Part shown: in pieces, positions 23,330-62,958 of the stretch | Numbering within the stretch: the stretch's first letter is position 1 | How the letters are laid out: every line of letters starts with the position of its first letter | NCBI GenBank assembly: GCA_964017155.1 | Contig: OZ024866.1 | Location: forward strand, 27,540,105 to 27,604,104 | Source: Oasisia sp. SBJ-2009 | Lineage: Eukaryota; Annelida; Polychaeta; Sabellida; Siboglinidae | Direction: 5' to 3' | Length of the DNA stretch: 64,000 nt | Notes under the pieces: model-generated | What the model was told of the DNA's origin: nothing | The model's database searches: none | What the model saw: the letters and a program-made list of their open reading frames with translations, nothing else | Position numbers and translations under genes: made by a program

Positions 23330-23332
23330 TAG

Positions 23333-36746: not shown

Positions 36747-37767
36747 AAGTACCCAACACCTCGGAAAGAGAAAAGACGAAAACATGGTACTAAAAGCGGA
36801 TCAGATGCGTGTGAAAGCACTACTAACTGAGACAATTACACTTCTGTGCAAGAATGGGCTCAACTACCAGTCAGAGTTTGCCATTGAAGCGCTCATTGGC
36901 ATAACTCTTGACCAGGATGACGTGTTCCTGGTCAGCATTAAAGAGACGATACGCACCGACCTGGGTCTGGACAAAGACCTGGACTCGCCAGATGACCACA
37001 GGGAATTCCGCATAGAAGCAACACGGTCATCAGTGCATCAAGATATGAAAGATGGCCTGGACAGTGCACCTGATTTGAGTATTATGGTCCAGTTGGACAA
37101 GTCAGAGGACGATGGTCAGTTAGTGACAACTCCAAATGGCAGCAGCGCACCAGTGCCTCGAAAACTGTTTAGGTCAATGCATGGTGACAGCGGGTCCGTG
37201 GGTGATATGGGTGATACGCAAACAAGTTACTCGAGTGATTCCGCACCATCGTCAATGACATTTGCTATGCGTGATTTCGACACGGGCAGTTCAACCACAG
37301 GCGGCGGTGATACTTTGCATAGAGAACGCAGCATGGACTCATCAGACCACGTTCGTCAGCCTCCGTTAAAAAAGTCAAGGACTGTTGACGAATCCGGTGA
37401 TCGGTCGGTGAAAGAAGAGTCGGAATCGGACGACGATGTAGTTGTGATAAAAGAGGAAGCTGGTTTAGATACGTTATCGTGCCAAATGGATTCTTACAAT
37501 CGGACGGGTATGATGGACACCAGTGGCGCGTTAACGTCAAGTGGTGCTGCTACAGTGACTCAAGATACAATCAGCAGCATAGTGTCGTCAGCAGCAAACC
37601 TTCTTCCTCACTCGTTAACGTTATCCACATCGGCACCAGTGTTTCCTGGTTGTTCGACGTGGGACCAGTTGCCATCAATCAGCGCGCACTCACTACCTCA
37701 GACAACAGCAAGTCCAAGTGCATCAATGTCGGGCACACCAAGTCAACAAAGCCAGCAAATGTCACAG
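36747..37767 (+). CDS. locus B shared 5' coding exon: N-terminal module plus acidic linker
   Basis: Acceptor TTCTTTCTTACAG|AAGTAC, ATG at 36784 in a good context (AACATGG), donor GTCACAG|GTAAGG after 37767. The coding part is exactly 984 nt (328 codons), phase 0. Residues 1-56 carry the module shared with locus A (LLCKNGLNYQSEF, IEALIGITLDQDDVFLV). Beyond it the exon is Ser/Thr/Asp-rich and probably disordered, with a basic patch PPLKKSR (about residue 194), VKEE and DDDVVVIKEE (about 208-226; sumoylation-like KxE plus a hydrophobic patch flanked by acid) and a Ser/Thr/Gln-rich end. No BTB, KRAB or SCAN domain is visible. Probably a nuclear regulatory N-terminus used by all locus B isoforms. 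Confidence 0.9.
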
Positions 37768-40700
37768 GTAAGGTTATTTCATATTGTTGACTATGTAAAA
37801 GGACACCTGTGGTTAGACATATATCCTATTATTGGACAAGCATTTTGCATTAAAAATAAAAAAGTTGCTTTTGTCAAATTTGGAGAGAGAAAAAGTTAAA
37901 AGGACACCCTAGGTTAAATGGTTTTGAAAAAAAATACCCAAAATGGTTTATTACAATTTATTATTAATTGTATGTTTACTACCAATAAATGTAACTTTTA
38001 TAACAACTTATGTCTGAATGACTTATGAATCGAACATGTCATATCAAGTTATCATATGCAGTATGAAATCTTTGACTACCATTTTCTAAAACACTTTTTT
38101 ATTTTGATTTGTAAAAGTGGATTATCTCTGGAGTAATTATGCTATCTACGGTGCACAATTATCAAACACTTCAATAGTTCAAATGATTGGCCTGTATTTT
38201 GTATTTTTTTCGTATATTCACAGAAATATTTTTTTATTGATTTTTTCTCTCTAGAATTGTAAGTATTTATATCCTCATAAAAGAGTGGCAGCATTTCCAA
38301 ATTTGTCAATATTTGTTTTGAAAAGGCAGAATTTTTTTTTTTTACCATGAAAACAAGGGATCTGGCTAAAAAAAGTTCAACGTTTTTTATTTGACCCATT
38401 ATATATGTTGGAAAATAAAAATAAACTTTTTGGCACATTAAAAATATCCCTATCTACCTGCCTTTTATATTCTTAAATTTTACTTTGTCCAAGAAAGGAA
38501 AGTATGTCTTGACTGCAGGTGTGATGTTGAAAGCCAGGATGTAGGTTACTTTTCCTGTGTTTGGTTTATATCAACTCTGATGCTGGAATCCTAATTGAGT
38601 TAGATGTATAATTTTGTGTAGGTAATCATCTTGAAAAGAAGATCAATAGAAACTAGAAGAAAAGAAACTAGTGTAATCATGTAGAAGGACAACATTTCAG
38701 AAACAACATTTTTTTCAGTACTTTTTGGTACTTTCTTTTTATCTTAAATTTTTTTCTGCGTACATAACACAGTATGAAGTACTTACTAAAATAATTGGCC
38801 TTTCTTAGACTGAGAGAACATCTTGAATGCTTAAATTGGAAAATTGTAATGATTCTACAAGAAACATTTGGCAAACAATCTTATTGATATGTAAGGGCAT
38901 TCCTTCTGTCACCAATTCTTTTTTTGGAAGTTGTCACACACGTACAGTTGTGTTTCATAAAAATACGCATATTTTTCACTGAAATTGTTAGTTTAAAATT
39001 ACAATTTCTTGTACCTGGGCAGTGGTTATTTATTTTCAATCATGGATGATTTCTAGATGAAACAGTGATATTTAAAAAATAATTATAAAAAATATTTGTT
39101 CCACACTATTAAAGACTGCCCTTTCGCATCATCTATTTCCCCAGTTCTGGGCATAAGGTAAGTAGCAAAGTATCCTAGATCCTGGCTTTGTTAAAATGTT
39201 GCCATCTGTGTGCTTTTACTCATACTTTTGTTAGTTGATTGTGAATTTAGCTATTTTATTATGTGAAGTTTAAGGCCGATATTAACTTGGGAAGTGAACT
39301 GAACAAATTATTACAAAGATTTGAAAAAATAGCAACAGTTTCAGATGGTAACATTTGTAGTTCTTTTCATCAAAAATAATGTTTGGTTGCATATTATACG
39401 GGTATTAGAATAGTTACCTAATAAACTGTACTTTTACCTCTATTGTGACAATATGTACATAATCAGTTTATAACCCTTGCTGTGCATTGTTTGAAACAGT
39501 GTTTTCTGTGGTTCACACAGTGCCCCACATAAGACAGTATGCTAGACTAAAGAAAATATATAAAAGTACACTTTTACAGTTGTAAAAATATTGCATAAGT
39601 GTATGTATTGAGTTACCATCACATGTCTTAGGTAATCTCAAATAAGGATAGCCCAAATAGTATGCAACCAAACTGAAATTTTTGAATGAGTTACTATGAA
39701 TGACATTAATTTTATGTGTTTCATGGTGAACTGACAGTCAATGAAAACATGCCAAGAAAGTAATTTCATTAAGAAAATTATTATCGTAGAAAAATATTCC
39801 TTCAACAAATATGAGCCAACTATCAAAGTTAACAACTGTTTACGATATTATTATTAGGTCATTTTAAGGCTTAGAATAAATCAGTTTGAAGCAAAATTAA
39901 AAACAATCCTAGTTGTACACTAGTAGTCATTCTACAGTAGCAAGTTATTATTTTCAAAAAGCAGGTTGCTTTTCCCTAGCTGAGCCTACAAATTTGGTAG
40001 TGTGATTGGTATACATGTATAGTGACATTAGCTCAAAAGTTTTGATTCTAAACCTTTACATATCTACGTTACAAAGCATTTTTTCATCAGTTTTTGGCAT
40101 TTGGTTCATGTTATGCATGGTATGTTTTCTTGTGACTGTCGGTATACATGGAATACAACAGCTGCTTAATAATGCATTCACATCGTTTACATTGTACTGA
40201 AATGTGGTTTGGGCTTCATTAGTTTCTGGTTGTGTCTTCTGTGGTCTGGATATCATTCATTGACTTGCTAGTACAGTGGCCAGTTGAGTTTGTTGTCACA
40301 TGATACAGGTGTAGTTTCAAAAGAACAGAAAAGCAACTTCTTCAGATATAGTGTCTGTCTAGCTCTGAAGCTGATGCTTTATATTACTGTAGACAGGTCT
40401 GTGATACACCACAACCATGTGTGTGTGTGTTAGTGGTATGAATTTATAATATTGAATTTTAGCTGCATCTGGTTGGCAGTAGAATAGGATGCGTAACTTA
40501 CCTTTATCATCAGGAAATGTTCTGACACAGTGTAGTAGATGTGCAATTTAGCATTTTGCTTCGAGTGATATAGTCGATTTGTTGGTGGTCAAGTCGATAT
40601 TAGAAATCACCTTGCAGACCATACAGATAAGGTGACGCTGTAACTGCAGTTAGTATAAGTACTTGAAAAAGGAAACCAGTCTTTAGCATAGTGGTTCCTG

Positions 40701-41090
40701 GTGTTAGTGTGTGTCCGCGTGTCATGTATTTTGTAAAAGAGATCTCATATTTTGTATGGGGTGTGAAGTTTTATACATATTCCTCACGATTTCTTAGTAA
40801 CACAAGTTAAACACTTATTGTAAGCAAACAACATTTGTATGTCGCAGAGCTTTAATAGTACTGGGCTATATGGATAGTGGGCATCTTTTGTACTTTCTCT
40901 GTTTGCCATTTATGAGAATGTAAAACATCGCAGAACATTACTTCAAGGATATGCCGTTTGCTAACATTAACAAAGATCAACTGTATGGACTGAAAGATGG
41001 TTACTGTGGTAAAAGAAAAAGATATAGATTAACATTCAAGTACAGTATCGGTTACAGACATTGGTTACAGTGGATTTGCCTACATTTCAG
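37768..41090 (+). other. large intron of locus B before the terminal-exon array
   Basis: AT-rich, 3.3 kb. No cassette-like frame is seen. The word AAAAGGACACC recurs at 37797 and 37899 just after the donor. The start of a common regulated intron would lie here. Confidence 0.45.
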
Positions 41091-41405
41091 GGTGACTTGC
41101 CACTTACCACAACGCATTATGATCAACGAACCAAGCGAAAGCGGATGGTATTATATGATAAACTACAAATCATACAACGTCTGGAGAATGGTGAAAACCA
41201 CCAGAGAATTGCAAATGACTATGGGATTGGGCGATCAACTGTTACACAACTAGGGAGGAATAAAAGTCAGTTGTTGTCTTTTATGAGCATGGTTGATGCT
41301 CGAGAAACACTGTGGCGTAAAACTGTTAGACTGAAAGAGAACCCAAAAGATGTTACACCAAATAACCCATCTCGGTCTGAGCCTGATGACAGTCATAACT
41401 CATAA
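41091..41405 (+). CDS. locus B terminal exon T1: single CENP-B-type helix-turn-helix
   Basis: Acceptor CTACATTTCAG|GGTGAC, phase 0. The domain is recognisable as the CENP-B/pogo N-terminal HTH: KRKRMVLYDKLQIIQRLENG, then HQRIANDYGIGRSTVTQL. It is followed by LSFMSMVDARETLWRKTVRL as in T2 and T3. Where T2 and T3 continue into a second HTH (KDVAHEAAVYEW, KDIFHEQAVYQW), T1 reads KDVTPNNPSR and stops, so it keeps only one of two DNA-binding subdomains. ATTAAA occurs at 41510 and 41530. It would give a shorter isoform with weaker or different DNA contact. Confidence 0.85.
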   Translation, partial: GDLPLTTTHYDQRTKRKRMVLYDKLQIIQRLENGENHQRIANDYGIGRSTVTQLGRNKSQLLSFMSMVDARETLWRKTVRLKENPKDVTPNNPSRSEPDDSHNS

Positions 41406-41747
41406 CAGTTAGTGTGTTAATAAGAACAGGGCCAAACATTGAGAATGAAGTGGTGAATGGTGATGTTTTTTAACTGGAGACCTGTATTCGATTTTATATG
41501 AACTTTGATATTAAAATGAAGACTTTGATATTAAAGGCTTGTGTGAATCACAGGTGTTTTCACGTCTATTTTGCTGGTTGGCTGAGTAGTGTGAACTTAA
41601 AATGCACAGCTATGGTTATTGGCTGACCTAACATACATTGAGTCTTTTTGACTGGCTAGTTGCAGACTTGCAGAGAATTGATGTGGCTAGGGAACTCATA
41701 TTCTCATTAGATGAATTGCTGCTGTTCATACACTTCGTACATTTCAG

Positions 41748-42293
41748 AACCTAATGTCGAGTGTAAGGGCCTGGGATGTGAGGACACCTGTGGACATGAT
41801 GGTACCCATAGAAGGGATACCTTCCAGCAGTGAAGGAACGGTAAAACGACATCGCATTGCCCTGTGTATTCAGGACAAGTTGAGAATTATTGAGCGCCTC
41901 GAAGAAGGAGCATCACATGGTAAAGTTGCCAGGGAGTATGGAATTGGCAGATCAACAGTCGCAGACATTAAGAAAAAGAAAGACCGGGTTCGTTTGTTTG
42001 TGAGCACACTTGACACAAGAACGGCGCTAAAACGAAAGAATCTGCGTGGGGCGAAGGACGTTGCCCACGAGGCAGCAGTCTATGAATGGTATGTTGGGGA
42101 GATACTGAAGGGTACCTATGTGACTGGACCTGCTCTAGCTGAGAAGGCGAAACTCATCTATTGGCAAATGCACCACGACAAGCCGGACTTCAATCCTGAG
42201 GCATTCCGTGCAACCAATGGATGGTTGGCTTGTTTCAAAGAACGCCATGGGATTAACTTTGCGTCTAAACAACCCAGAAACACTGATGCATAG
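41748..42293 (+). CDS. locus B terminal exon T2: full CENP-B-type double HTH
   Basis: Acceptor TACATTTCAG|AACCTA, phase 0, 181 codons. A linker of about 30 residues precedes the first HTH (KLRIIERLEEGASHGKVAREYGIGRSTVADIKKKK). The basic connector KRKNLRGAKDV and the second HTH of CENP-B/Tc5 type follow (AVYEWYVGEIL, PALAEKAKLIYWQM, ATNGWLACFKERHGI). No catalytic DDE domain follows and the exon closes with a stop; AATAAA is at 42656. It looks like the DNA-binding half of a pogo/Tigger-type transposase used as a host exon. Confidence 0.9.
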   Translation, partial: NLMSSVRAWDVRTPVDMMVPIEGIPSSSEGTVKRHRIALCIQDKLRIIERLEEGASHGKVAREYGIGRSTVADIKKKKDRVRLFVSTLDTRTALKRKNLRGAKDVAHEAAVYEWYVGEILKGTYVTGPALAEKAKLIYWQMHHDKPDFNPEAFRATNGWLACFKERHGINFASKQPRNTDA

Positions 42294-43313
42294 AACAGGA
42301 CAAGCGACAACATACTATTTCTATAAACCAAACTGAATGCCATATTTATAGTTTAAAACATGTATCCTAATTTGAAAGATTTTTAATTGATTTCTGAAAG
42401 AGAAAATTAGAAGAATATTTGTCTTTGTTTATGCAGAAATGTTCTGTCAATTGAGGATTATATCGATCATTGCGTATGTGACTGCTATAAAAACAACTTA
42501 GCGATTTGAAATTTGATTCTGGCAGCTATCTAAGCTGTTTCATAGACTTTATAACTAACTAGGGAAAGCAGTATATTCTTGTGATACCAAAGTCAAGAGA
42601 AACTGTCTTGGTGTCTTGTGGATTTTAGAGCTTGGACTTGAGCAAGATTAAAACTAATAAAAAGTTGCAAGTGGATTCGTGTAATTTAACATAATTTTGT
42701 TGGGGTTATGTTGAGCTCTGTAGACATTGTTTCATGTTGTCAGAACGTGAGATGTGCATGTCAAGTGATGTTGAGCAAACAATCCTTTGTTGGCAACAAA
42801 GTGACATGTGTGCTGCTGATTCCAGTTTGATGATTGACAAGCAGGTTGACTTATGCACCATACTGAGACTGACTTAAAAACCATCTTGAATCCAGAACAT
42901 TCTACAGCTTGATAGTTGGCATCTTTTAACCATCTCTGAATTGCATAAATGCTGTGCAATACATGAGTTATGCCATGCATGCTTTGTAGAGGATGGGCTG
43001 TTTTTATGGCTAACAGTATTGTAGTTTTACTGGAAACCTGTTGTCATGTGACTAAAACAGTTCCTCTAATATTACTACCGTGCATACTTGCTGATATTAA
43101 ATTTTTTATGCAAATGATACACGCTGTGTTGAGAATGTTTACTGGGCATAGTAGCTTGTTATTTCTGATATTTTATCTCCCCAAAGCAGCGTGTTTGCTA
43201 TAAGATGGAATGTAATAATACATCAGCTTTTTCAGTGCCAGATGTGTTAAGAGGTTTTAGTTGTTAGCAAAATTGGTTCTCCACAGCACTGAATGGACTT
43301 GCATACGTTTCAG

Positions 43314-43775
43314 AATCGAAATAAACAGGCAAGGCTGACACCTAAAGAAAGGGGAAGCAAGCAGACGGTTCTGACAATTCATGATAAACTTGAGATCATC
43401 CGTCGTATTGAAAACGGGGAGAAGCAGTACAGAATTGCGAAAGAGTATGGCATTGCAAGATCGACCGTTAGTGATATTAAGAACATGAGAGCGAAGTTCC
43501 AATTGTTCTTGAGCAAGAATCACTCTCCTGATGTGTTGCAGCACAGGACAATGCGCCTGCCAAAGGACATATTTCATGAACAGGCAGTGTATCAGTGGTA
43601 CCTTGACCAAGTCAACACTGGAAATAGAGTGTCTAATGCATTTCTGCTCGCACAGGCTAAGGTCATCCATCAAGATCTTCATGGAAATGAGCCAGGCTAT
43701 GATCCAAACGTTTTCCAAATGACAACGGGATGGCTGACGCGCTTTAAAAGCCGACATGGGATTGTTACTTCCTGA
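43314..43775 (+). CDS. locus B terminal exon T3: full CENP-B-type double HTH
   Basis: Acceptor CATACGTTTCAG|AATCGA, phase 0, 153 codons. First HTH: KLEIIRRIENGEKQYRIAKEYG then IARSTVSDIKNMRAK. Connector TMRLPKDIFHEQAVYQW; second HTH with AFLLAQAKVIHQDL and MTTGWLTRFKSRHGI. The stop is TGA and AATAAA lies at 43907. It is clearly paralogous to T2, with the same domain boundaries, but much diverged, so recognition sequences may differ. Confidence 0.9.
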   Translation, partial: NRNKQARLTPKERGSKQTVLTIHDKLEIIRRIENGEKQYRIAKEYGIARSTVSDIKNMRAKFQLFLSKNHSPDVLQHRTMRLPKDIFHEQAVYQWYLDQVNTGNRVSNAFLLAQAKVIHQDLHGNEPGYDPNVFQMTTGWLTRFKSRHGIVTS

Positions 43776-44607: not shown

Positions 44608-44913
44608 GTTGCAATGGGGAGCATTCTGCACAGTGTCATGGCAGGAGCAGATTCACCAGTTATTGAAATTGATGGCAAAACTCACGTGCCCGACTTTGTG
44701 CCACCAACGCCAGCTAAAAGCAAGCCAACGAAACGCTGTCGTGTGTGTTATCGCAGTGGCGTGAGGAAGGAAACGAGAGTGCATTGTAGTACATGCAGCG
44801 CACACCCGGGGCTCTGTTACCCAGCATGCTATGCCCTCTATCACTCGAGACATTACTGGTCACGTGGTTATAAGATGAACCATGCTACGTCATGGGGAAC
44901 AAATATTAATTAA
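44608..44913 (+). CDS. locus B terminal exon T4: piggyBac-type cysteine-rich ribbon
   Basis: Acceptor TTTGTGTTGCAG|GTTGCA, phase 0, 101 codons. After a linker with VPPTPAKSKPTKR comes RCRVCYRSGVRKETRVHCS, then TCSAHPGLCYPACYALYHS. The spacing C-x2-C ... HC-x2-C ... PGLC-x3-C-x3-YH is that of the cysteine-rich ribbon found at the C-terminus of piggyBac transposases, which contacts terminal-repeat DNA. No piggyBac catalytic core is nearby. AATAAA is at 45120. Confidence 0.85.
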   Translation, partial: VAMGSILHSVMAGADSPVIEIDGKTHVPDFVPPTPAKSKPTKRCRVCYRSGVRKETRVHCSTCSAHPGLCYPACYALYHSRHYWSRGYKMNHATSWGTNIN

Positions 44914-45371: not shown

Positions 45372-45662
45372 GGAGCTGCAGGCAGTAGTACCCATAGAGG
45401 AGTCAGTGAAAAGAAACTCTACCAGTGTTCTCTCTGCTCCAAAACCGTACATACATCTTGGGGCTTGAAGGTGCACGAGCGCCTGCACCTTGGCTCGTAT
45501 CTGTACACGTGTCCGTACTGTGGTAAAGGATTCTCTGGACACAGCAATCTGCAGGGACATTTAGTGCAGCACACTGGAATACGACAGTTTAAGTGTGATC
45601 AGTGTTGGCGTGAGTTCCGATATGCGCAGGAATTGAGAAAGCACAAAGCAAAGGACCACTAG
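45372..45662 (+). CDS. locus B terminal exon Z1: three C2H2 fingers (class I)
   Basis: Acceptor TTTACTTGCAG|GGAGCT, phase 0. A linker of 15-16 residues, then three fingers joined by GSYLY and TGIRQF. Helix residues -1 to 6: TSWGLKV, GHSNLQG, YAQELRK. The third finger closes H-x4-H at the very C-terminus (KAKDH, stop). Finger 1 lacks the usual Phe (VHT in place of F-S/T). First of the zinc-finger series. Confidence 0.92.
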   Translation, partial: GAAGSSTHRGVSEKKLYQCSLCSKTVHTSWGLKVHERLHLGSYLYTCPYCGKGFSGHSNLQGHLVQHTGIRQFKCDQCWREFRYAQELRKHKAKDH

Positions 45663-45893
45663 ATACTTGGAGCCCACTTGTTGACAACTGCCGCTTCATG
45701 ACCTTGTTATGCTGGCGCCACCTAGTGACATTCAGCATAACTCAAGTTCATAGTGCACTCTAAAGCATGTCTGTGTACATTGGCATCTTTACTACCGAAC
45801 GGCTTCTAGTTTGCTACGCTGCGTCAAGCTGCAATGCTGCATTTGACTGGATGATGTAGACGCGAGGGTAATGTGGCCGTTATATTCTTGCAG

Positions 45894-46226
45894 GCACGCA
45901 GAACGCCACAACGTGCCTCTGATGGCCCGCCGAGCACAGGAAAGAAAGTCTACCAGTGTTCAATTTGTGCGAAGAGAGTGTTCAGTGCCTGCGGACTGCG
46001 CCTGCATGAACGCTTGCACAGTGGCAATTACCTGTACAGCTGTCCGTACTGTGGCAAAGGTTTCTCTGGGCATAGCAACCTGAAGGGGCATCTTGTTCAT
46101 CACACGGGAATTTTTGAGTTTAAATGCAACCTGTGTCTGCGTGAATTTCGATATGCGAAAGACTTGAAACACCACAAAGTGAAGGACCACCCAGAGTGCA
46201 AGAATGAAGCAAACGAAAAGAATTAG
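45894..46226 (+). CDS. locus B terminal exon Z2: three C2H2 fingers (class I)
   Basis: Acceptor TATTCTTGCAG|GCACGC, phase 0. An Arg/Pro/Ser linker with GKKVYQ precedes helices SACGLRL, GHSNLKG, YAKDLKH. Finger 2 is nearly the same as in Z1, so Z1 and Z2 are sisters. A charged tail ends NEKN. No clear poly(A) signal occurs before Z3, only 192 bp downstream. Confidence 0.92.
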   Translation, partial: ARRTPQRASDGPPSTGKKVYQCSICAKRVFSACGLRLHERLHSGNYLYSCPYCGKGFSGHSNLKGHLVHHTGIFEFKCNLCLREFRYAKDLKHHKVKDHPECKNEANEKN

Positions 46227-46417: not shown

Positions 46418-46729
46418 AGCACTTCAAAGATTGCCAAACTGAGCTCGCAGTGTGGAAATCGGGCAAGCTTGAAGCGTTTTCAGTGCACTCTCTGCAGTAA
46501 AACATTTACCACCCATCTTGGGTTTAAGCTTCATGAAGGCTCACATCGCGGTGTCTTCCCGTACAAGTGTTCGTATTGTGGAAAGGGTTTCTTGGCATCG
46601 AGCAATCTACGAGGCCACCTGGTGGACCATACCGGTGTTATGGAGTTTTCGTGCTGTGTCTGTAAACGGGAGTTCCGCTATGCTAAAGACCTGAAACTCC
46701 ACCAGAAGCGCTGCAAGCAACAGGCTTAA
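46418..46729 (+). CDS. locus B terminal exon Z3: two C2H2 plus one C2HC finger (class I)
   Basis: Acceptor TTTTGTTTTGCAG|AGCACT, phase 0. Ser/Lys-rich linker; helices THLGFKL, ASSNLRG, YAKDLKL. The third finger ends HQKRC, so the last ligand is Cys. A short Lys/Gln tail and TAA follow. Confidence 0.92.
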   Translation, partial: STSKIAKLSSQCGNRASLKRFQCTLCSKTFTTHLGFKLHEGSHRGVFPYKCSYCGKGFLASSNLRGHLVDHTGVMEFSCCVCKREFRYAKDLKLHQKRCKQQA

Positions 46730-47237: not shown

Positions 47238-47561
47238 ACATGGCATCAAAACGTTACAAAGCAAAGTGGGAAAGCCATTTTGACTGCGGCAACGGAACGT
47301 GTCGACAATCGATGTTCAATTTGCAACAAGTCGTGTCGCACTGCTCGTGGTCTATTGCTGCACGAAGGGTTACATCGGGGTATTTACCCCTACACTTGTC
47401 CATATTGTGGTCGTGGCTTCTCTGGCAACAGCAATTTGCGAGGACATCTAGTGGTGCACACTGGCGTGAAGGAGTTTAAGTGTGACGTCTGTAAACGGGC
47501 GTTCAGATATGCAAAAGATCTGCGAAGACACCAGAGAATCGGCAAAACATGCCACACTTAG
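47238..47561 (+). CDS. locus B terminal exon Z4: three-finger cassette (class I)
   Basis: Acceptor TATTTTCCAG|ACATGG, phase 0; an alternative AG at 47137 would hit TAG after three codons and is rejected. Helices TARGLLL, GNSNLRG, YAKDLRR. Finger 1 has Cys-Arg (KSCRT) where Phe is usual. The third finger reads HQRIGKTCH, an unusual spacing for the last ligands. Confidence 0.9.
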   Translation, partial: TWHQNVTKQSGKAILTAATERVDNRCSICNKSCRTARGLLLHEGLHRGIYPYTCPYCGRGFSGNSNLRGHLVVHTGVKEFKCDVCKRAFRYAKDLRRHQRIGKTCHT

Positions 47562-48181: not shown

Positions 48182-48526
48182 GGGGCAGCAGCAGTGGGCA
48201 GGCCGCGGGGCAGTGTGACGGTCCGCCCACATGTCTGCTCTGTTTGCAGTAGGCACTTTGTCAGCCGCAACGGGCTGCAGCTACACGAGGACCTGCACAA
48301 AGGTCGCTACCGCTACAAGTGTCGCTTCTGTGGCAAGGGCTTCTCGGGCAGCACAAACCTGCGGGGCCACCTCGTGCAACACACGGGCATCAAGGAATTC
48401 CCTTGTTCCTTCTGCGGCCAGGAGTTCCGCTACGCGCGCCAGCTGCGACGGCATGTGGAGGCGCACCATGCCAGTGCCCCGCCGCCCACGCACCATGCCA
48501 TTGCCATGCCACCAAGTTTCATGTGA
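48182..48526 (+). CDS. locus B terminal exon Z5: three C2H2 fingers (class I), GC-rich
   Basis: Acceptor CTTGTTGTTACAG|GGGGCA, phase 0. Ala/Gly/Arg linker; helices SRNGLQL, GSTNLRG, YARQLRR. A Pro/His-rich tail of about 25 residues ends PPSFM. GC content is well above the neighbouring cassettes, which opens long false frames on both strands. Confidence 0.92.
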   Translation, partial: GAAAVGRPRGSVTVRPHVCSVCSRHFVSRNGLQLHEDLHKGRYRYKCRFCGKGFSGSTNLRGHLVQHTGIKEFPCSFCGQEFRYARQLRRHVEAHHASAPPPTHHAIAMPPSFM

Positions 48527-49409: not shown

Positions 49410-49724
49410 AGGGGTCAAGCACCTGGTGTCCGTTGGCAGGCTGTAGACCTCTCGGCACAAGTGTCTGCTTGCGATAAGAAATACAAATGTTCTCTCTGCC
49501 CTAAACTCTTTGCGACTCTGGTTGGGTTACGACTGCATGAGAACTTGCATAGAGGGCGCTACCGCTATCATTGCGAAATCTGTGGAAAGGGGTTTTCGGG
49601 AACAACGAATCTTAGAGGTCACATGGCGAAACACACGGGTGTCAACGAGTTCAAGTGTTCACACTGTGGCCGGGAATTCCGCTATTTTAGTAGTTTGAAA
49701 AATCACGCCCGATCATGCCATTAA
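49410..49724 (+). CDS. locus B terminal exon Z6: three C2H2 fingers (class I, duplicated unit 1)
   Basis: Acceptor TGTGCTTCCAG|AGGGGT, phase 0, starting RGQAPGV. Helices TLVGLRL, GTTNLRG, YFSSLKN; the third finger closes HARSCH. Exon and upstream intron match Z8 and Z10 closely, including the lead-in GATCCAATTTTCACATGG. Confidence 0.92.
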   Translation, partial: RGQAPGVRWQAVDLSAQVSACDKKYKCSLCPKLFATLVGLRLHENLHRGRYRYHCEICGKGFSGTTNLRGHMAKHTGVNEFKCSHCGREFRYFSSLKNHARSCH

Positions 49725-50012: not shown

Positions 50013-50360
50013 ATGCCTGGTCAGGCAGCGTTGGTGGCCAGAGCTGTCACTGCTGCACTAATCACTCGGGATGTCCCCAGTTCTGTGGTTAAGTCTCGCT
50101 ACGGCTGCAGCCATTGCTCTAAGCGGTTCACAACGTTATCGGGTCTGAAATTGCATGAGGATGGCCACCTAGGACGGTATCGCTACCACTGTGAGATCTG
50201 TGGCAAGGGCTTTGCTGCCACGAGTAACTTGCGTGGACATATGTCAGTCCACACTGGCGTTATCAAGTTCAAGTGTGCTAAGTGTGGTCGCAAAATCCGA
50301 TATGAAGGAGATTATCGACGTCACTTGTCAGTGTGCCAGCAAGTTAATCCAAACCTTTAA
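50013..50360 (+). CDS. locus B terminal exon Z7: three-finger cassette (class I, duplicated unit 1)
   Basis: Acceptor TTGTTTACTTGCAG|ATGCCT, phase 0. Helices TLSGLKL, ATSNLRG, YEGDYRR. The third finger (CAKCGRKIRYEGDY) lacks the usual Phe and Leu core residues and ends HLSVC (C2HC), so its fold may be altered. AATAAA at 50378 is only 18 nt past the stop. Confidence 0.92.
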   Translation: MPGQAALVARAVTAALITRDVPSSVVKSRYGCSHCSKRFTTLSGLKLHEDGHLGRYRYHCEICGKGFAATSNLRGHMSVHTGVIKFKCAKCGRKIRYEGDYRRHLSVCQQVNPNL

Positions 50361-50908: not shown

Positions 50909-51226
50909 CCGTGTCAAGCTCCTGGTGTCCATGGGCAGGCTGTAGACCTCTCGACAAAAGTGTCAGCTAACCATAAGAAACACCGGTGTTCTCTGTGTAC
51001 TAAGCACTTTGCAACTGCGTTTGGGCTACGACTGCACGAAGACTTACATAGAGGGCGCTACCGCTATCATTGCGAATACTGTGGAAAGGGGTTTTCGGGA
51101 ACAACGAATCTTAGAGGACACTTAGCGAAACACACGGGTGTCAACGAATACAAGTGTTCACACTGTGACCGTGAATTTAGCCATTTTATGAGTTTAAAAA
51201 ATCATATCCGGTCATGCCATTTATGA
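50909..51226 (+). CDS. locus B terminal exon Z8: three C2H2 fingers (class I, duplicated unit 2)
   Basis: Acceptor TGTGCTTCCAG|CCGTGT, phase 0. Helices TAFGLRL, GTTNLRG, HFMSLKN. A close paralogue of Z6, with changes concentrated in fingers 1 and 3 while finger 2 is the same in its helix. Confidence 0.92.
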   Translation, partial: PCQAPGVHGQAVDLSTKVSANHKKHRCSLCTKHFATAFGLRLHEDLHRGRYRYHCEYCGKGFSGTTNLRGHLAKHTGVNEYKCSHCDREFSHFMSLKNHIRSCHL

Positions 51227-51570: not shown

Positions 51571-51924
51571 ATGTCTGGTCTTGCACCATTGGTGGATAGA
51601 GCTGTCACTGGCCCATCTACAGTAATCCCTCAGGATGTCCCCAGTTCTGTGGTTAAATCTCAGTATCGCTGCAGCCATTGCTCAAAGCGGTTCACAACGA
51701 TATCAGGTCTGAAAATGCATGAGGATGGCCACCTAGGACGATATCGCTACCACTGTGAGATCTGTGGCAAGGGCTTTGCTGCCACGAGTAACTTGCGTGG
51801 ACATATGTCAGTCCACACTGGCGTTTTCAAGTTCAAGTGTGCTAAGTGTGGTCGCAAAATCCGATATGAAGGAGATTATCGACGTCACTTGTCAGTGTGT
51901 CAGCAAGTTAATCCCATACTATAA
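51571..51924 (+). CDS. locus B terminal exon Z9: three-finger cassette (class I, duplicated unit 2)
   Basis: Acceptor TTGTTTACTTGCAG|ATGTCT, phase 0. Helices TISGLKM, ATSNLRG, YEGDYRR. Fingers 2 and 3 are almost identical to Z7, pointing to recent duplication or gene conversion. Third finger C2HC as in Z7. Confidence 0.92.
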   Translation: MSGLAPLVDRAVTGPSTVIPQDVPSSVVKSQYRCSHCSKRFTTISGLKMHEDGHLGRYRYHCEICGKGFAATSNLRGHMSVHTGVFKFKCAKCGRKIRYEGDYRRHLSVCQQVNPIL

Positions 51925-52126: not shown

Positions 52127-52492
52127 AGGGGTCAAGCACCTGGTGTCCGTGGGCAGGCTGTAGACCTCTCGGCGACAGTTTCAGCTAGCCATAAGAAATA
52201 CAAATGTTCCGTGTGCGTTAGACACTTTGCAAGCATTGACGGGCTGCGACTGCACGAGGACCTGCATAGAGGGCGCTACCGCTATCATTGCGTGTACTGT
52301 GGAAAGGGGTTTTCGGGGACAACAAATCTCAAAGGACACATGGAGAAACACACGGGTGTCAACGAGTACAAGTGTTCCTATTGTACTCGTGAATTTAGCT
52401 ATGCGTCTAGTTGGAAATACCATGTCAGGTCGTGCCCGTTAAAACCATCCTATGGAGCTGCTTCAACTGTGCAAAAATACAGTAACATGTGA
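52127..52492 (+). CDS. locus B terminal exon Z10: three-finger cassette (class I, duplicated unit 3)
   Basis: Acceptor TGTGCTTCCAG|AGGGGT, phase 0. Helices SIDGLRL, GTTNLKG, YASSWKY. The third finger ends HVRSCP, so the last His of Z6 and Z8 is gone and Cys is the likely ligand. A 20-residue tail not found in Z6 or Z8 ends YSNM. AATAAA at 52554. Confidence 0.92.
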   Translation, partial: RGQAPGVRGQAVDLSATVSASHKKYKCSVCVRHFASIDGLRLHEDLHRGRYRYHCVYCGKGFSGTTNLKGHMEKHTGVNEYKCSYCTREFSYASSWKYHVRSCPLKPSYGAASTVQKYSNM

Positions 52493-52853: not shown

Positions 52854-53051
52854 AAGTCTAGTCAGGCACCACTGGTGGCCATAGCTCTCACCGCTACACT
52901 AAACCCTCACAATGTTCCCCATTCTGTGTGGATGCAAAATCCAATATTAATATGAATAGTAGTTTTATAAATATATTAATATGTATAGTTTTGTACAAAA
53001 TGTTATATGAAGAAGATTATCAACGTCACTTGTCGGTGTGTCAGCATGACT
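52854..53051 (+). pseudogene. dead copy of the Z7/Z9 cassette (duplicated unit 3)
   Basis: The acceptor (TTGCTTACTTGCAG|AAGTCT) and first ~27 codons are preserved (SSQAPLVA..., matching Z7). The frame then jumps from the VPxSV codons directly to the end of finger 3: GTGTGGATGCAAAATCC joins TGTGG of both places, suggesting a microhomology deletion of all zinc ligands. An AT-rich insertion of about 60 bp brings an in-frame TGA. The distal GATTATCRACGTCACTTGTC and the AATAAA (53134) survive. The splice site looks usable, so it could still produce a protein without fingers. Confidence 0.88.
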
Positions 53052-53139
53052 AGAGGTGGAACCTTGATGTGTAACTTTTCATTAACCGTTAAATGCCATA
53101 TTCAAATTACTTCTGTTCGTCCCTAGGTTGAACAATAAA

Positions 53140-53735: not shown

Positions 53736-54362
53736 GCACTACTTCCACAAGCATTGTTGCAGCCTTCTACTCGGCTTGCTGTAGCAGCCAGGCAGCCTTC
53801 TACTCAGCTTGCTGTACCAGCCAGGCAGCCAACTACACAGCTTGCTGTAGCGGCCAGGCAGCCAACTACACAGCTTGCTGTAGCAGCCAGGCAGCCAACT
53901 ACACAGCTTGCTGTAGCAGCCAGGCAGCCTCCTACACAGCTTGCTGTAGCAGCCAGGCAGCCAACTACACAGCTTGCTGGAGCAGCCAGGCAGCCAACTA
54001 CACAGCTTGCTGTAGCAGCCAGGCAGCCAACTACACAGCTTGCTGTAGCAGCCAGGCAGCCAACTACACAGCTTGCTGTAGCAGCCAGGCAGCCAAGCAG
54101 GAAACACTTGAAGTGTTCGAGCTGTGACAAGCACTTCTCCACCATGTGTGGCCTGGAGCTGCACCAGAACCTGCACCGAGGCCACTACCCCTACCACTGT
54201 CACTTCTGTGGCAAGGGCAGTCTGTCCACCACCAACCTTAGGCGACACCTGGCAAAGCACACGGGTGTGCGCGACTACAAGTGCACGTTTTGCTCGAAAG
54301 AGTTCAGCTGTTCTTGGGATCTCAAAAGACACGTTACTCTTCTACACAGGGAACGTGTTTGA
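53736..54362 (+). CDS. locus B terminal exon Z12: in-frame 33-bp minisatellite plus three C2H2 fingers (class II)
   Basis: Acceptor GTTTTCTTCCAG|GCACTA, phase 0. After eight residues come ten tandem 11-residue units of the type QPTTQLAVAAR (53760-54089), then QPSRKHLKC and three fingers with helices TMCGLEL, STTNLRR, CSWDLKR. The unit length is a multiple of three and the three plus frames all stay open, so only the frame continuous with both acceptor and fingers is taken as coding. The repeat would make a long Gln/Thr/Ala/Arg spacer between the N-terminal part and the fingers. AATAAA at 54803. First of the class II exons. Confidence 0.9.
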   Translation, partial: ALLPQALLQPSTRLAVAARQPSTQLAVPARQPTTQLAVAARQPTTQLAVAARQPTTQLAVAARQPPTQLAVAARQPTTQLAGAARQPTTQLAVAARQPTTQLAVAARQPTTQLAVAARQPSRKHLKCSSCDKHFSTMCGLELHQNLHRGHYPYHCHFCGKGSLSTTNLRRHLAKHTGVRDYKCTFCSKEFSCSWDLKRHVTLLHRERV

Positions 54363-55261: not shown

Positions 55262-55597
55262 ACCGCAACATCCCGTTACTACCCGTACTGGGGCTCTGTC
55301 GTCCAGGCTCCCCGTAAACACACGTGTTCCCTGTGTGGTAGGAGCTTTTCCCGGGCACACGGGCTGCATCAACACCAGGCCGTCCACAGCGGAAACTATC
55401 CTTACGCGTGTCAGTTCTGTGGCAAGGGGTTTATCTCGACCACTAACCGTAGACGTCACGTCGCTAAGCACACGGGCATACGTGACCACAAGTGCACATT
55501 GTGTGTGTGCGAGTTTAGCTGTCTTTGGGACCTGAAGAGACACATAATTCGTCACCACCAAGACCGTCATCTGAATGATGAATCGGGCAGACAGTAG
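55262..55597 (+). CDS. locus B terminal exon Z13: three C2H2 fingers (class II)
   Basis: Acceptor TTTGTGTTTCCAG|ACCGCA, phase 0, starting TATSR. Helices RAHGLHQ, STTNRRR (Leu at +4 replaced by Arg), CLWDLKR. The third finger closes HIIRHH. A basic/acidic tail ends SGRQ. AATAAA at 55729. The loss of the helix Leu in finger 2 may weaken its fold. Confidence 0.92.
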   Translation, partial: TATSRYYPYWGSVVQAPRKHTCSLCGRSFSRAHGLHQHQAVHSGNYPYACQFCGKGFISTTNRRRHVAKHTGIRDHKCTLCVCEFSCLWDLKRHIIRHHQDRHLNDESGRQ

Positions 55598-55734
55598 TGT
55601 GTGGCACCTACACCTATTTTTCTGTTCTGTCCCAGGATGACTTGACCGTGGACATATTATTACAAAGTCACAGTACAGCACAGTTGTCATTTCGGTAGTC
55701 TTGAGAAGAGCGTTTTTGGGTAGCTGTTAATAAA

Positions 55735-56930: not shown

Positions 56931-57236
56931 ACTGCAACACCTCGTAGGTCAGACTCTTTCGCCGCCTCGTCTCGGGACCACACTTGTTCGCTGTGTGGTC
57001 ACAGCTTTTCGAGTGCCCACTCTCTGCGCCTGCATGAACCTATACACAGTGGCCGCTACCCCTACCGCTGCGAGATCTGTGGGCAGGGCATTGTGTCGAC
57101 CAGTAACTATAGGCGTCACCTGGCGACCCACACAGGCACACGGGACTACAAGTGCACGTTGTGTACGCAAGCCTACACGTGCTCGTGGAGTCTGAAGAGA
57201 CATCTTCGACACGTTCATAAACAGCCATATGATTGA
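56931..57236 (+). CDS. locus B terminal exon Z14: three C2H2 fingers (class II)
   Basis: Acceptor TTTGTGTTTGCAG|ACTGCA, phase 0, starting TATPRRSDS. Helices SAHSLRL, STSNYRR, CSWSLKR. Finger 2 reads CGQGIV instead of CGKGxL. The stop is TGA and AATAAA is at 57778, giving a 3' UTR of about 0.55 kb. Confidence 0.92.
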   Translation, partial: TATPRRSDSFAASSRDHTCSLCGHSFSSAHSLRLHEPIHSGRYPYRCEICGQGIVSTSNYRRHLATHTGTRDYKCTLCTQAYTCSWSLKRHLRHVHKQPYD

Positions 57237-57955
57237 GGAACAGCAATTCAGCATGACCAGTTCATTGGTGGAGACAAACGTAGCTCAGCACGTCATAGAT
57301 TGTATTAGAGTGCACGTTCTAAGCTCTTTACACTGAACACAATGTACATGTCTGCAGGTGACACCAGTCATTTTTGCAAAGTCTTTACCATGGTCTAAAT
57401 TGACCTGACTACATTTTATATATTTATGATTGACTTTATTGTATGTAAAAGTGTCGAGCAGTGGCACATAATTGTATTAGTATACAATGAAGTGTATTTA
57501 GAGATTTTAATGTGAAATTATAATATTTTAGCGACAAACTGGAAGTACAGTCAGGCAGCATATTTACCATTTAAAGAATTATGTCAGCTAACGGATACAG
57601 AGAAGCCACCAACCGAAATGTTGGTTGATATATCTTCATTGTGCGAGTGATACTTGTAAAGTTTCTGTGGAATAGTTGCACGAGCTCTTATAAGATGATA
57701 ACGTTTAATTGTCATCATTCAGTGTATCAACCATCTGGTGTGTTATAGTTCCACACTGCTTTTATCATATGAAGGGAAATAAATAATGGAAATGTGTTTG
57801 TTATTGAGGATGTGTGTGTTTTACTCGAAGATACAGAACTTGCCTTTGGTTTCACTTTCACATTCAAGACACATAGAGGAGTACTTTAGGTCTCAGTTAG
57901 GAGGTTGAGTGATTCTTGCGCTGGCTCTCACCCGGCTGTGTGTTTGTGTTTGCAG

Positions 57956-58282
57956 ACTGTCTCGCCCCCTAGGTCAGGCTCTGTCCAACGGGCAGCCAGT
58001 AGACACACATGCTCACAGTGCGGTAGCAGCTTTTCCAGACTCCACTTCCTGCGTCTGCACGAGGCTGCTCACAAAGGCTGCTACCCGTACCGCTGTGAGA
58101 TCTGTGGCAAGGGCAGTCTGAACACGAGCAATCTTAGACGGCACATGGCCGTGCACACGGGCAGGGTCGACCACAAATGCCATCTGTGTATTCGCACGTT
58201 CCGTTATATCTCGAGTCTGAGGAGGCACATTGAAAACTGTCACACAGACAATATACCAGCCGGAGGACATCGACTTGTGTAG
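57956..58282 (+). CDS. locus B terminal exon Z15: three C2H2 fingers (class II)
   Basis: Acceptor TTTGTGTTTGCAG|ACTGTC, phase 0, starting TVSPPRS. Helices RLHFLRL, NTSNLRR, YISSLRR. The third finger is of the class I style (FRYISSL) rather than CxWxL, so the exon is a class II/class I mosaic. Tail GGHRLV. A 31-bp minisatellite follows the stop directly. Confidence 0.92.
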   Translation, partial: TVSPPRSGSVQRAASRHTCSQCGSSFSRLHFLRLHEAAHKGCYPYRCEICGKGSLNTSNLRRHMAVHTGRVDHKCHLCIRTFRYISSLRRHIENCHTDNIPAGGHRLV

Positions 58283-58291
58283 TTGAGCTGC

Positions 58292-58470
58292 AGTAGAGAG
58301 AGAGAGAGAGAGGTGGCAAGAACAGGATAGAGACTAGAGAGAGGTGGCAAGAACAGGATAGAGACTAGAGAGAGGTGGCAAAAACAGAATAGAGACTAGA
58401 GAGAGGTGGCGAAAACGTGAGAGAGACTAGAGAGAGGTGGCGAAAACGGGATAGAGACTAGAGACAGGTG
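58292..58470. repeat. 31-bp minisatellite between Z15 and Z16
   Basis: About five units of AGGTGGCAAGAACAGGATAG + AGACTAGAGAG, preceded by (AG)n. It fills nearly all of the 230-bp gap between the Z15 stop and the Z16 acceptor, so no room remains for a normal 3' UTR and poly(A) signal. Confidence 0.9.
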
Positions 58471-58511
58471 GTGAGGAACGCTCACCCAACTGTGTGTGTT
58501 TGTGTTTGCAG

Positions 58512-58829
58512 ACTGCAGCATTCCGTAGCTCGGGCTCTGTCATCCAGGTGCAGGCCTCTCGTAGGCACACGTGTTCGCAGTGTGGTAAGAAGTTCTCGGG
58601 CGTGCAGTTCCTGCAGGTGCACGAGGCGGCCCACCGCGGCCACTACCCGCACTGGTGTGAGATCTGTGGCAAGGGCTGTCTCTCCTCCAGTAACCTCAAA
58701 CGGCACATGCTCGCACATGCCGGTGTCCGTGCCTACAAATGCAAGTTGTGTACGCAAGTGTTCACCTGTGCGTGGAATCTGAAGAGACATGTTCTTACAA
58801 TTCATCGGCAGCAAGACGTTACTGACTGA
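58512..58829 (+). CDS. locus B terminal exon Z16: three C2H2 fingers (class II)
   Basis: Acceptor TTTGTGTTTGCAG|ACTGCA, phase 0, starting TAAFRSSGS. Helices GVQFLQV, SSSNLKR, CAWNLKR. The linker after finger 2 is HAGVRAY, not the usual HTG. AATAAA at 59195. Confidence 0.92.
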   Translation, partial: TAAFRSSGSVIQVQASRRHTCSQCGKKFSGVQFLQVHEAAHRGHYPHWCEICGKGCLSSSNLKRHMLAHAGVRAYKCKLCTQVFTCAWNLKRHVLTIHRQQDVTD

Positions 58830-59668
58830 TACTGACAGTTTGACAGGTGTCGTGTTGATACCACTGGAACTTGTTTATGTTAGAGAACAGTGCAGTCAGT
58901 TAATAATAATGACGTTTGACCACAGTGCAGCATAAAAAAACAGTTACTTTTGGACATTTGCCAGACATACCGAATGTCACGTTGATGAATTGGAGAGCAG
59001 GAATTGTTAGTTGAGCTATGGTGCTATAGTGGCACCATACCATGTTGCTCGTGCCATGAAACAGAGTGGACTGTAAGAGGCCCCTTGGTCAGTTTGCCTT
59101 GTGGTCTGGTCAGCATTTGGTTCAAATGACATTGAACCTGTTCATTCTGTTTGTCTTTATTCTGTTCTATGATGTTTAATATTTCTGATATGTGAATAAA
59201 ATATGTTTTGCTACTTGCTGTTTTTTGTAATATAGAAAAGCGGTTACTGCTAGAAGCTTACGGCTACTTGGTATTCATACATATAACCTTTTACTTTCTC
59301 CTCTGTTTTTGTGTACATGAAATAGGAATGATGGAAGTGTAGCTTTCATAGTTGATGACTCCACATTATAATTGGAAAAAGGGTTACCAGTGCAAACAAA
59401 TATTTGTAACTGGTTTACAATTATTTAGTGCTTACTCCGTGATTAGATTGTCTTGTTCTGTCATATTAAACCAGTGGTACCCTTGAAAAAAAGAGCAATA
59501 TGTTGTGTGAGAAAGCAACCAATGCACTGAGTGTGTTCTAGGTACTTGTATGCGAGTCAGGACATCTCTTCTACCTGCCAGGTGTGTAGTAAACGTAGCC
59601 AAAGTAGAAGAGCCGTGTTGAGCAGTTGTGGTTGTCTATTTACCCACACCGTTGTGTTTTGTTTGCAG

Positions 59669-59983
59669 ACTGCACTGCCTGTTAGCTCTGGCTCAGACCC
59701 ACACTCAGTCTTCCCACCACCCGCTAAACACACGTGTCTCCAGTGTGGTAGGAGCTTTGCGAGACTCTACATCCTCCGTCGTCACGAGGCCGCGCACAGG
59801 GGCCACTACCCCTTCTGGTGCAAGATCTGTGGCAAGGGGTGCCTCTCCACCAATAACCTTAGACGCCACTTGGCGACTCACACAGGCGTACGCGACCACC
59901 AGTGCAGGTGGTGTTCGCAAAAGTTCACCTGCCCCTGGAGTCTCAAGAGGCATATGCGTAACTTCCATCAAGACAAAGCTTGA
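59669..59983 (+). CDS. locus B terminal exon Z17: three C2H2 fingers (class II)
   Basis: Acceptor TTTTGTTTGCAG|ACTGCA, phase 0, starting TALPVSSGS with a Pro-rich linker. Helices RLYILRR, STNNLRR, CPWSLKR. Finger 3 reads CRWCSQKF. AATAAA at 60279. Confidence 0.92.
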   Translation, partial: TALPVSSGSDPHSVFPPPAKHTCLQCGRSFARLYILRRHEAAHRGHYPFWCKICGKGCLSTNNLRRHLATHTGVRDHQCRWCSQKFTCPWSLKRHMRNFHQDKA

Positions 59984-60890
59984 GTGTGTATACAGACAGA
60001 CAGGCTGTGACAGTGACATTCGTGTCGGTAAACTTGGGAGTTCCTTCAGTGAGGTGTCAATGTTTGACACGAGTCAGTGCATTCATTGCCTCTCAACTTG
60101 ACAGATTTGACATAACTCCTCGTGATGTCCGAGGTTAGCCTGGCTTAACGCCAAACAGCTGAGGATGTACATAAAAACGATGCCGCTGTGGTGTTATTTT
60201 CTTTGTACATGTCAGCCGTGGTGTCATTGTGGCTTGCATTTTCCGTCTGCATGTCACGATGCATCAGTGATCTGTATGAATAAATTCACTTTAGTTTGAC
60301 GCAAAGCAAGTTGAACATGTCTGGGTTACTGCAGTGTAGACTAGTGTTTCGTGAGGCCATATTTGAAATTGAAAAGGTTTATTTGGTGCTCATAAGGAAT
60401 ACTGCCTACTCAACATGACCATACTACCCACTGGTGTCAGGAAGACCTCAAGCATATTTCAGCAGAGTCACTTAGGTAGAAGCTGCTGAGTGAAGCTATT
60501 GACATCAACAGCTCTCTCACCCAACTGAGGTGTTTCCTCTGGGTAAATGGTGAGCTAGGTGGTAGGGTAAGCTGAACAGGCACTGACGGTGGACTGTCAA
60601 GCTATGGTGTATGCCCCAAGCAACTGTTTTTAAAACTAGCTTCTAAATGGTGCATTGTGAAGTGAGTTTGATTTTATTACCTTAGTGGGGAAAGAAATTG
60701 CAAGTTAGTACGAAAACGTGTGTGTAGTATTACAGTACTTCTAATTTTGTAAATTGTCACCAGGGACAGGAATTAGCTGTGAGGTGGCAACTTGGGTATA
60801 TTTTGAGTTAGAAAAGTAGCAAGGTGGCCCACCTTGCTTAATATCATACAGCAGGGGAAACACTGCAACTGTGTGTGTTTGTGTTTGCAG
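59984..60890 (+). other. spacer between Z17 and Z18
   Basis: Holds the Z17 3' UTR. The word CTCTCACCCAACTG near 60513, usually found just before class II acceptors, occurs here without an exon after it, so it may be a relic of a lost cassette. Confidence 0.35.
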
Positions 60891-61208
60891 ACTGCAGCGT
60901 GCCGTAGTAGTGCAGGCTGGCTCCTGCAGTCACCTCCACCTCGTAAACAACACTCATGTGCACAGTGTGGTCGCACCTATACAACAGCTCATGGCCTCCA
61001 CCAGCACGAGGCCATTCACCGTGGCCACTACCCCTACCACTGCGAGGTGTGTGGCAAGGGTAGTTTGTCAACCACTAACCTTAGGCGCCACATGGCGAAG
61101 CACACAGGCATTCGAGAAAACAAGTGTCCGTATTGTGTGAAGGACTTTGGCTGTCCCTGGAGCTTGGGAAGACATATCCGTCATTGTCATAAGGACATTA
61201 CGCGGTGA
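60891..61208 (+). CDS. locus B terminal exon Z18: three C2H2 fingers (class II)
   Basis: Acceptor TTTGTGTTTGCAG|ACTGCA, phase 0, starting TAACRSSAG. Helices TAHGLHQ, STTNLRR, CPWSLGR. Finger 2 equals Z12 in its helix; finger 3 matches Z17 except Gly for Lys at +5. ATTAAA at 61876 is the nearest poly(A)-like signal. Confidence 0.92.
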   Translation, partial: TAACRSSAGWLLQSPPPRKQHSCAQCGRTYTTAHGLHQHEAIHRGHYPYHCEVCGKGSLSTTNLRRHMAKHTGIRENKCPYCVKDFGCPWSLGRHIRHCHKDITR

Positions 61209-62637
61209 CACCAGTAGTGTCATAAGTTCTGTCCTTGGCATAGCACTGAGTCCTTGTCATATCGGATGTCAATTTTGCAGCTATGATGGACATTATTGGT
61301 CAGTGTTGACACCTTGATAGCTGCCCAATGATAGTGTTTGATTGTGTGCCGTTCATGCATTGCCTATGGCAGTATGCTGAGATGATCTGTATCGTGCTAA
61401 CTGGTTCTCAGTGGCATTTTGGAACAATCAAATTTGAAGACAGTAATTGTTATGGGTAATCGGTTATTATATGAAATGGAATGTTCAGTCTAGCAGCAAA
61501 GTAATTACTAGGCAGAGTTGTAAGCAGCGTCTGATTATTTGTGCTGCCTTGCCGCCAATGAGGTTGTTTTATTAATATGTATGCATAATTAACTTGATCA
61601 GATTGAAAGTTGACACTTGTTTTCACTCAATGAAGCCAGTTTTATGTTGTTGCTGCTGTTCCATTGATGAACTCTGCCTCTCATACTGCCAAAGAGGACA
61701 GGGCAGTACTACTGTTGTTGCAATTCCATGACCTACGAAGCCTGGAACCTACAAGACTGCAACTGTTCTGGCGCTGGCGCGTCAGATAACTTTTAAACTT
61801 CCTGATGTGTCTGGTTATTAGTTTTGCATTTGTGTGATATGACAAAATGATCTGAAAAATAATGTTTATTTTTGCATTAAAATTTCTACTGAAGATCTGT
61901 CTTGGATTGTTGAGAAATATAGATTTGATGAGATGCAGCAGAAAAAACCTGTTTTAATTGACCTCATACGGGGTGGAATCTTTAGTGCTGTTTTTGCCAT
62001 GGTGGTGTTGGAAAACATAACAAAGTTGAGTAAGCTTAGGCTTCTGTAATGCTGTGTATTTCAGTAACAGTAATAAGCTGTCTTGTTGACAGAATAGACA
62101 TGCACAAACGTATGCACTCATATACATGACAACTTTCTCACATAAAAGAGATCTGCTATGATTGTGAATTAGCAAAGGTCCATGTGGCATGAATCAAGGA
62201 TTGCATCAACTGGTGTCGTGTCTGATGAGCACCACGAGTGACCCACCAGATTTATACATGTAGGCAACTGTTTAAAAGGGCCACGTAGACATATGAACTG
62301 AGCAACTTTTGTTCATAGACCTCACCAGTTAGCCATGGGAGCAGCAGATAGTAGCCATATACATGGCCATATAGGCCAACAGCAGAGATGTATATACTCA
62401 TGTCGGCCATGTTGTGGTAATACTTGATTACACTTACAGTGGCAATTGAATATGCATGCTTAAAGTTACTAACCCACAATCTGCAGCATACAATCAGTGG
62501 ACATTTAAAATATATCAAATCACAGCCTGTATTTTGTAGTTGGAGAATATTGGTGTTGATAACATGCTTGCTGTAGGAAAGAAAACACCCGATTACCAGT
62601 TTAGTTGTCGGCCAACAGTGTGTGTTTGTGTTTGCAG
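61209..62637 (+). other. spacer between Z18 and Z19
   Basis: 1.4 kb, the longest gap in the array. No cassette or other gene is seen. A minus-strand frame at 62252-62698 overlaps Z19 and is a shadow. Confidence 0.4.
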
Positions 62638-62958
62638 ACTGCAGCGTCTCGTAGGTCAGACTCTGTCGTCCAGGTCCAGACCTCTCGTAGTCACACATGT
62701 TCCCAGTGTGGTAGGAGCTTTGCGAGGGCGTATGTCCTCCACCAGCACGAGGCGACCCACCGGGGCCTCTACCCCTACCACTGCCAGTACTGTGGCAAGG
62801 GTTACCTGTGTACCACCAGCCTTAGGCGCCACCTCTCCACTCACACCGGTGTGCGAGACCACAAGTGCAGGCTGTGCACGCAGGCGTTTAGCTGTGCCTG
62901 GGGTCTGAAGAGACATGTCTCTCACTGTCACAAAGACGCTGGCAAGTCAGCTCTGTGA
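62638..62958 (+). CDS. locus B terminal exon Z19: three C2H2 fingers (class II)
   Basis: Acceptor TTTGTGTTTGCAG|ACTGCA, phase 0, starting TAASRRSDS. Helices RAYVLHQ, CTTSLRR, CAWGLKR. It is the only cassette whose middle finger has Ser instead of Asn at helix position 3. Tail KDAGKSAL. Last exon recognised before the window end. Confidence 0.92.
   Translation, partial: TAASRRSDSVVQVQTSRSHTCSQCGRSFARAYVLHQHEATHRGLYPYHCQYCGKGYLCTTSLRRHLSTHTGVRDHKCRLCTQAFSCAWGLKRHVSHCHKDAGKSAL

Follow-up and report, generated by a model that had tools for sequence, protein, structure and literature searches.

The Drosophila lola locus, as described in PMC1947980, joins one common N-terminal BTB region to a choice of C-terminal ends, at least 20 in number; most carry zinc fingers, three isoforms lack them, and both cis and trans splicing are used. 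In the account given by PMC4667647, mod(mdg4) has a common 5' exon and many variable 3' exons, with at least 31 isoforms in the fly and at least 40 in Danaus from 24 acceptor genes; its trans-spliced products combine a BTB domain with mostly FLYWCH domains, and its 3' exons lie on both strands in the fly and on one strand in Anopheles. Here we describe a locus of this kind from the annelid Oasisia sp. SBJ-2009 (Siboglinidae), found in a stretch of 64,000 nucleotides (contig OZ024866.1 of assembly GCA_964017155.1, positions 27,540,105 to 27,604,104, forward strand), hereafter the window. A shared coding exon is followed by an array of exons that each encode a DNA-binding domain and their own stop, and the sequence makes it highly probable that one gene yields a large set of transcription factors through terminal-exon choice.

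The exon anatomy resembles that of lola in that a single common region is followed by a large choice of C-terminal exons, most of which encode zinc fingers, and it resembles that of mod(mdg4) in the common 5' exon with many variable 3' exons. However, the common region of lola contains a BTB domain, whereas here it contains an unnamed alpha-beta-beta domain, and the annelid array has at least 45 exons, including ones with CENP-B/Tc5, piggyBac-type and probably bZIP_Maf domains. Compared with mod(mdg4), the locus lacks BTB, uses one strand and is mostly C2H2. The two-strand arrangement of Drosophila mod(mdg4) was not seen here; to judge from the description of Anopheles, it is not common to all mod(mdg4) loci. 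Of the 26 Pfam families matched by the 22 window cassettes, 25 were listed, and FLYWCH was not among these; it is present in a relative, P0117. The locus works like lola and mod(mdg4) but belongs to neither, because its N-terminus is not BTB.

The shared coding exon (36747..37767, + strand) lies directly after an AG acceptor, contributes 328 codons from an ATG at 36784 and ends in a phase-0 donor, CACAG/GTAAGG, after 37767, in agreement with a first-pass annotation of this DNA that had proposed a single shared 5' exon with this donor. Its N-terminal domain of about 58 amino acids (36784..36957) was predicted to form a helix (residues 3-25) and two strands (31-42 and 46-57), with a mean pLDDT of 90 and a pTM of 0.72. 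The exon had no Pfam match at E<=0.1, and the Pfam matches at E<=0.01 among 60 family members fell into four families, none of them BTB, a result that upholds the earlier statement that the N-terminus differs from the BTB of the insect loci. No solved structural relative of the N-domain was found, which does not make its fold new. In the linker that follows, a K and an E are nearly invariant within an IKEE motif, which we take to resemble a SUMO site. Searches with the shared exon returned 218 homologues at E<=1e-3, the best 120 of which were listed. All 33 of the homologues P0002-P0034 read Q then V at the donor, as does P0001, so the donor position is conserved.

Downstream on the same strand, 22 of 22 exons between 41091 and 62958 start at an AG acceptor in phase 0 and have a single stop, at their end. 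Pfam searches assigned C2H2 to 18 of them, CENP-B_N to three and zf-Tnp_2 to one. The earlier description of 22 intact exons, each with a phase-0 AG, a DNA-binding domain and its own stop, thus holds for every exon, and the four that it had set apart from the zinc fingers proved to carry transposase-type domains. Terminal exon 1 (41091..41405) has CENP-B_N, and exons 2 (41748..42293) and 3 (43314..43775) have CENP-B_N with HTH_Tnp_Tc5; the CENP-B_N matches (E 8e-12 to 1e-13) identify all three as CENP-B/pogo-type, and among solved structures exon 2 matches CENP-B itself best (1hlv, E 4e-5). No DDE catalytic domain was among the matches listed for exons 1-3 at E<=0.1, leaving the DNA-binding part alone there. 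Exon 4 (44608..44913) encodes a piggyBac-type zinc ribbon (zf-Tnp_2, E 1.1e-6, above the cut-off) and aligns with the C-terminal part of the piggyBat transposase (9c0f, E 0.005).

Each of the remaining 18 window exons encodes three C2H2 fingers: exons 5 (45372..45662), 6 (45894..46226), 7 (46418..46729), 8 (47238..47561, with a less certain choice of acceptor), 9 (48182..48526), 10 (49410..49724), 11 (50013..50360), 12 (50909..51226), 13 (51571..51924), 14 (52127..52492), 15 (53736..54362), 16 (55262..55597), 17 (56931..57236), 18 (57956..58282), 19 (58512..58829), 20 (59669..59983), 21 (60891..61208) and 22 (62638..62958). In exon 15 the fingers are preceded by an in-frame 33-bp tandem repeat of 10 copies (53759-54096), and an 84-bp unit repeated eight times follows exon 22 (63038-63705). 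A crude check for donors after the domain found GTRAG strings inside 7 of the 22 exons.

To score the window acceptors we used a matrix trained solely on cassette families other than the one being scored. The best AG before the domain was in phase 0 in 18 of 22 exons (binomial 4e-6, with copies that are not independent) and coincided with the named acceptor in 17. The misses in this 240-nt run were the three CENP-B acceptors, which ranked 8th, 12th and 4th, the acceptor at 47238, which ranked second, and that at 53736, which lay outside the stretch; in a 450-nt run 53736 ranked first and 50909 second. For the CENP-B exons, whose acceptors score poorly in this cross-family test, relatives offered a separate view. 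Among 14 relatives' open reading frames (ORFs) that read from upstream into the CENP-B exon, with an internal chance match in P0162 excluded, 13 have FQ just before the exon and the 14th has LQ, the pattern that a conserved, same-phase CAG acceptor would give.

The genome comprises 764 Mb in 33 contigs, and we analyzed the next 90 kb downstream on the contig that bears the window (C13, 45.6 Mb), with coordinates running on from the window. The first-pass annotation had ended the array at 62958, yet 28 further domain exons follow. The interval 64040-100767 holds 21 finger exons, each on the + strand, and seven more domain ORFs extend to 123492, five with fingers, one with bZIP_Maf and one with an unnamed domain. 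With a matrix trained on the 22 window exons and applied out of sample, the best AG before the first finger was in phase 0 in 21 of the first 21 exons, and phase 0 was also best in two of the seven far-end ORFs (103860, score 7.4; 123073, score 14.9). The resulting share, 23 of 28, compares with 99 of 337 control ORFs without fingers on the + strand and 118 of 386 on the - strand, which under a similar rule showed no phase bias (99/118/120 and 118/118/150 across the three phases). Agreement of phase beyond chance, as first claimed from the window, was therefore recovered across families, out of sample and against unbiased controls. The array contains at least 45 in-frame terminal exons, 22 in the window and 23 beyond; the original count of at least 22 was right for the window and an underestimate for the locus. 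A TIG-domain ORF at 135355 indicates another gene after the array, and over the 154 kb scanned no further N-domain was found on the + strand apart from that of the shared exon.

Proteins of relatives bear on whether the shared exon is joined to such cassettes. In 7 of 12 fused proteins, fused and read-through relatives part exactly at a V (GTN), which corresponds to the phase-0 donor; the pairs are P0046/P0041, P0051/P0042, P0082/P0076, P0089/P0091, P0093/P0120, P0096/P0108 and P0129/P0137, and P0063/P0038 is consistent with the same junction. Domains fused to the N-part include C2H2, an unnamed domain, a TALE-type homeobox (P0115, Homeobox_KN) and FLYWCH (P0117), and both P0115 and P0129 are annotated in another annelid, Paralvinella palmiformis. 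The unnamed domain of the far-end ORF (L030:9025-9492) recurs in a minus-strand locus of the window and, with about 25% identity, as the C-terminal part of P0063 and P0082. Contigs of relatives were paired by equal size in nucleotides, not by name, and in 10 cases a front exon and a CENP-B cassette lie on contigs of the same size (31 front-exon versus 26 cassette contig sizes). One of the ten (374106) bears a front exon 97% identical to that of Oasisia and may be another assembly of the same or a sister species. As read from these sequences, front exon and cassettes are linked in relatives and in-frame joins exist in relatives' proteins, which would represent spliced transcripts.

Tandem zinc-finger clusters are common in animals, and the cassettes might instead be separate zinc-finger genes, each with its own start, standing beside an unrelated single-exon gene. 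A Met does precede finger 1 in 11 of the 39 finger exons. In the other 28, however, the stretch from the last upstream in-frame stop to finger 1 contains none (15 of 18 in the window and 13 of 21 beyond; counted from the acceptor, 15 of 21 past the window). The shortest distances from a stop to the next acceptor are 95, 106 and 160 nt, and the 95-nt gap ends at a low-scoring acceptor (-4.9). Together, the lack of Met and gaps of this size argue against separate genes, as do the common phase, the lack of another N-domain in the array, and the linkage and fused proteins in relatives, and we regard this explanation as very improbable.

We also considered whether a few proximal exons are used while the others are unexpressed or decaying copies. 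One decayed cassette, similar to exons 11 and 13, does lie within the array (~52854..53046, + strand, its start placed by eye and 52996-53046 aligned). The other 22 window exons are intact, however, and the five tested pairs show more synonymous than non-synonymous change per site. Four pairs of young cassettes, formed by five exons, gave dN/dS of 0.25-0.42, with an excess of synonymous change (Fisher p 0.016 to 1e-6), so young copies are under purifying selection, and use of a few exons alone appears quite unlikely. At positions -1, 2, 3 and 6, through which C2H2 fingers contact bases, the 39 finger cassettes have 39 different sets of predicted contact residues.

Several observations weigh against a single gene with alternative terminal exons. 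Because the cassettes are duplicates, their phases cannot be counted as independent observations. Downstream of the stops there is no enrichment of polyA signals: 13 of 22 exons have one within 400 nt against 9.8 expected (p 0.12). At the far end, the best AG of four finger ORFs (109651, 113095, 116355 and 120558) falls in a different phase, so that these ORFs would require a different partner or one more exon; the best AG of the bZIP_Maf exon (L029:2347-2856, E 5.5e-9) is also out of phase and its second best is in phase 0, and we consider it a likely terminal exon. The junction test has no clear outcome for five of the 12 fused relatives, P0084, P0101, P0115 and P0117 being without a close partner, and the fused proteins lie mostly on short contigs of unknown kind. 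Taken together, the common phase of 22 of 22 window exons, that of 23 of 28 beyond and the joins in relatives nevertheless support, as the best reading, a lola-like gene whose alternative 3' terminal exons supply the DNA-binding domain. The terminal-exon array is real and large, and the genome sequence points to splicing from donor 37767, probably mostly in cis.

Under this reading, the primary transcript would begin upstream of 36747 and contain one N-terminal coding exon, whose donor at 37767 would be spliced to any one of the downstream exons, which number at least 45. Every terminal exon would open in the same phase, add a different DNA-binding domain and end translation, so that each protein would carry only one such domain. 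The constant part would supply the small alpha-beta-beta domain and the linker with its conserved IKEE, while the variable part would set the DNA target. The N-domain is likely to be a dimerization or cofactor surface.

Front exon and 3' exons could alternatively be transcribed apart and joined between transcripts, as in mod(mdg4), and such trans-splicing is described for both mod(mdg4) and lola (PMC4667647; PMC12692577). A second locus in the window (13877-26313, - strand), divergent from the first, makes this worth considering, since its exons are in the same phase and an exchange would be in frame. Its shared exon (25363..26313, ATG 26295) encodes the same N-domain and ends AAC/GTATGT in phase 0. 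Of its three candidate terminal exons, those at 16294..16680 and 13877..14326, each with two C2H2 fingers, have a clear phase-0 AG, and the third (19423..19953, given as its ORF), which carries the unnamed domain, has an uncertain acceptor. Against trans-splicing, all 45 in-frame exons of the array lie on the strand of their front exon, whereas fly mod(mdg4) uses both; array cassettes were found only on the + strand, and the minus-strand exons in the window come with a front exon of their own. Spacings of 95-160 nt are hardly long enough to hold a promoter for every exon, and a shared 3' precursor would still fit them. On this evidence we judge trans-splicing as the main route to be unlikely.

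The surroundings of the second locus include a reverse-transcriptase-like ORF (21195-23033, - strand), noted by eye, between its front exon and its cassettes. Another such ORF, also noted by eye, lies at ~5700-7160 (+ strand). Between the two loci, 27786-28983 holds 86 copies of CATGC with AT-rich arrays.

The N-domain has 28 matches in the genome, the second locus among them; 27 are on C13, several standing in divergent pairs, and one weak match (E 8e-4) is on C10. We examined five of the 26 loci outside the window together with their downstream flank. Two finger exons at 40.372+ have a phase-0 AG, ranked first for one and second for the other. At 33.13- a phase-0 AG scores only narrowly best (4.5 versus 4.4), and at 37.02+ the top-scoring AG is out of phase. 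Searches of about 28 kb downstream of 0.32+ and about 18 kb downstream of 40.366- revealed no multi-finger exon, with just two weak matches at 0.32+. A large array is thus not typical of the few loci seen.

The four transposase-type exons have a precedent in PMC10027918, where transposase DNA-binding domains, including CENPB, are described as co-opted as transcription factors in Lophotrochozoa, and CENPB, HTH-Psq, FLYWCH and others are given as metazoan transposon-derived transcription factors. Here, such domains are exons of a larger splice array; the main text of that paper has no match for 'isoform' or 'alternative splicing'.

These observations lead us to favor, somewhat tentatively, the view that the locus is the founding member of an independently arisen spiralian counterpart of lola and mod(mdg4). 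It would represent a new family of alpha-beta-beta N-domains, with 27 of 28 members on one chromosome-size contig and several in divergent pairs, whose copies act as hubs for terminal DNA-binding exons; transposase domains would have been captured as ready-made terminal exons, and exchange between loci by trans-splicing would be in frame. With at least 45 exons spanning C2H2, CENP-B, piggyBac-type, probably Maf-type and one unnamed domain, it is to our knowledge the largest such array. Collinear, single-donor and dozens of exons long, the array offers a good natural test of splice-site choice among many terminal exons. If this view is correct, the strategy of lola and mod(mdg4) would have evolved on at least two occasions, starting from N-termini that are unrelated and reaching a larger scale in spiralians, and there would be a clear path from transposase DNA-binding domains to host regulators, since a domain captured as a phase-0 terminal exon requires neither a new promoter nor a new start codon.

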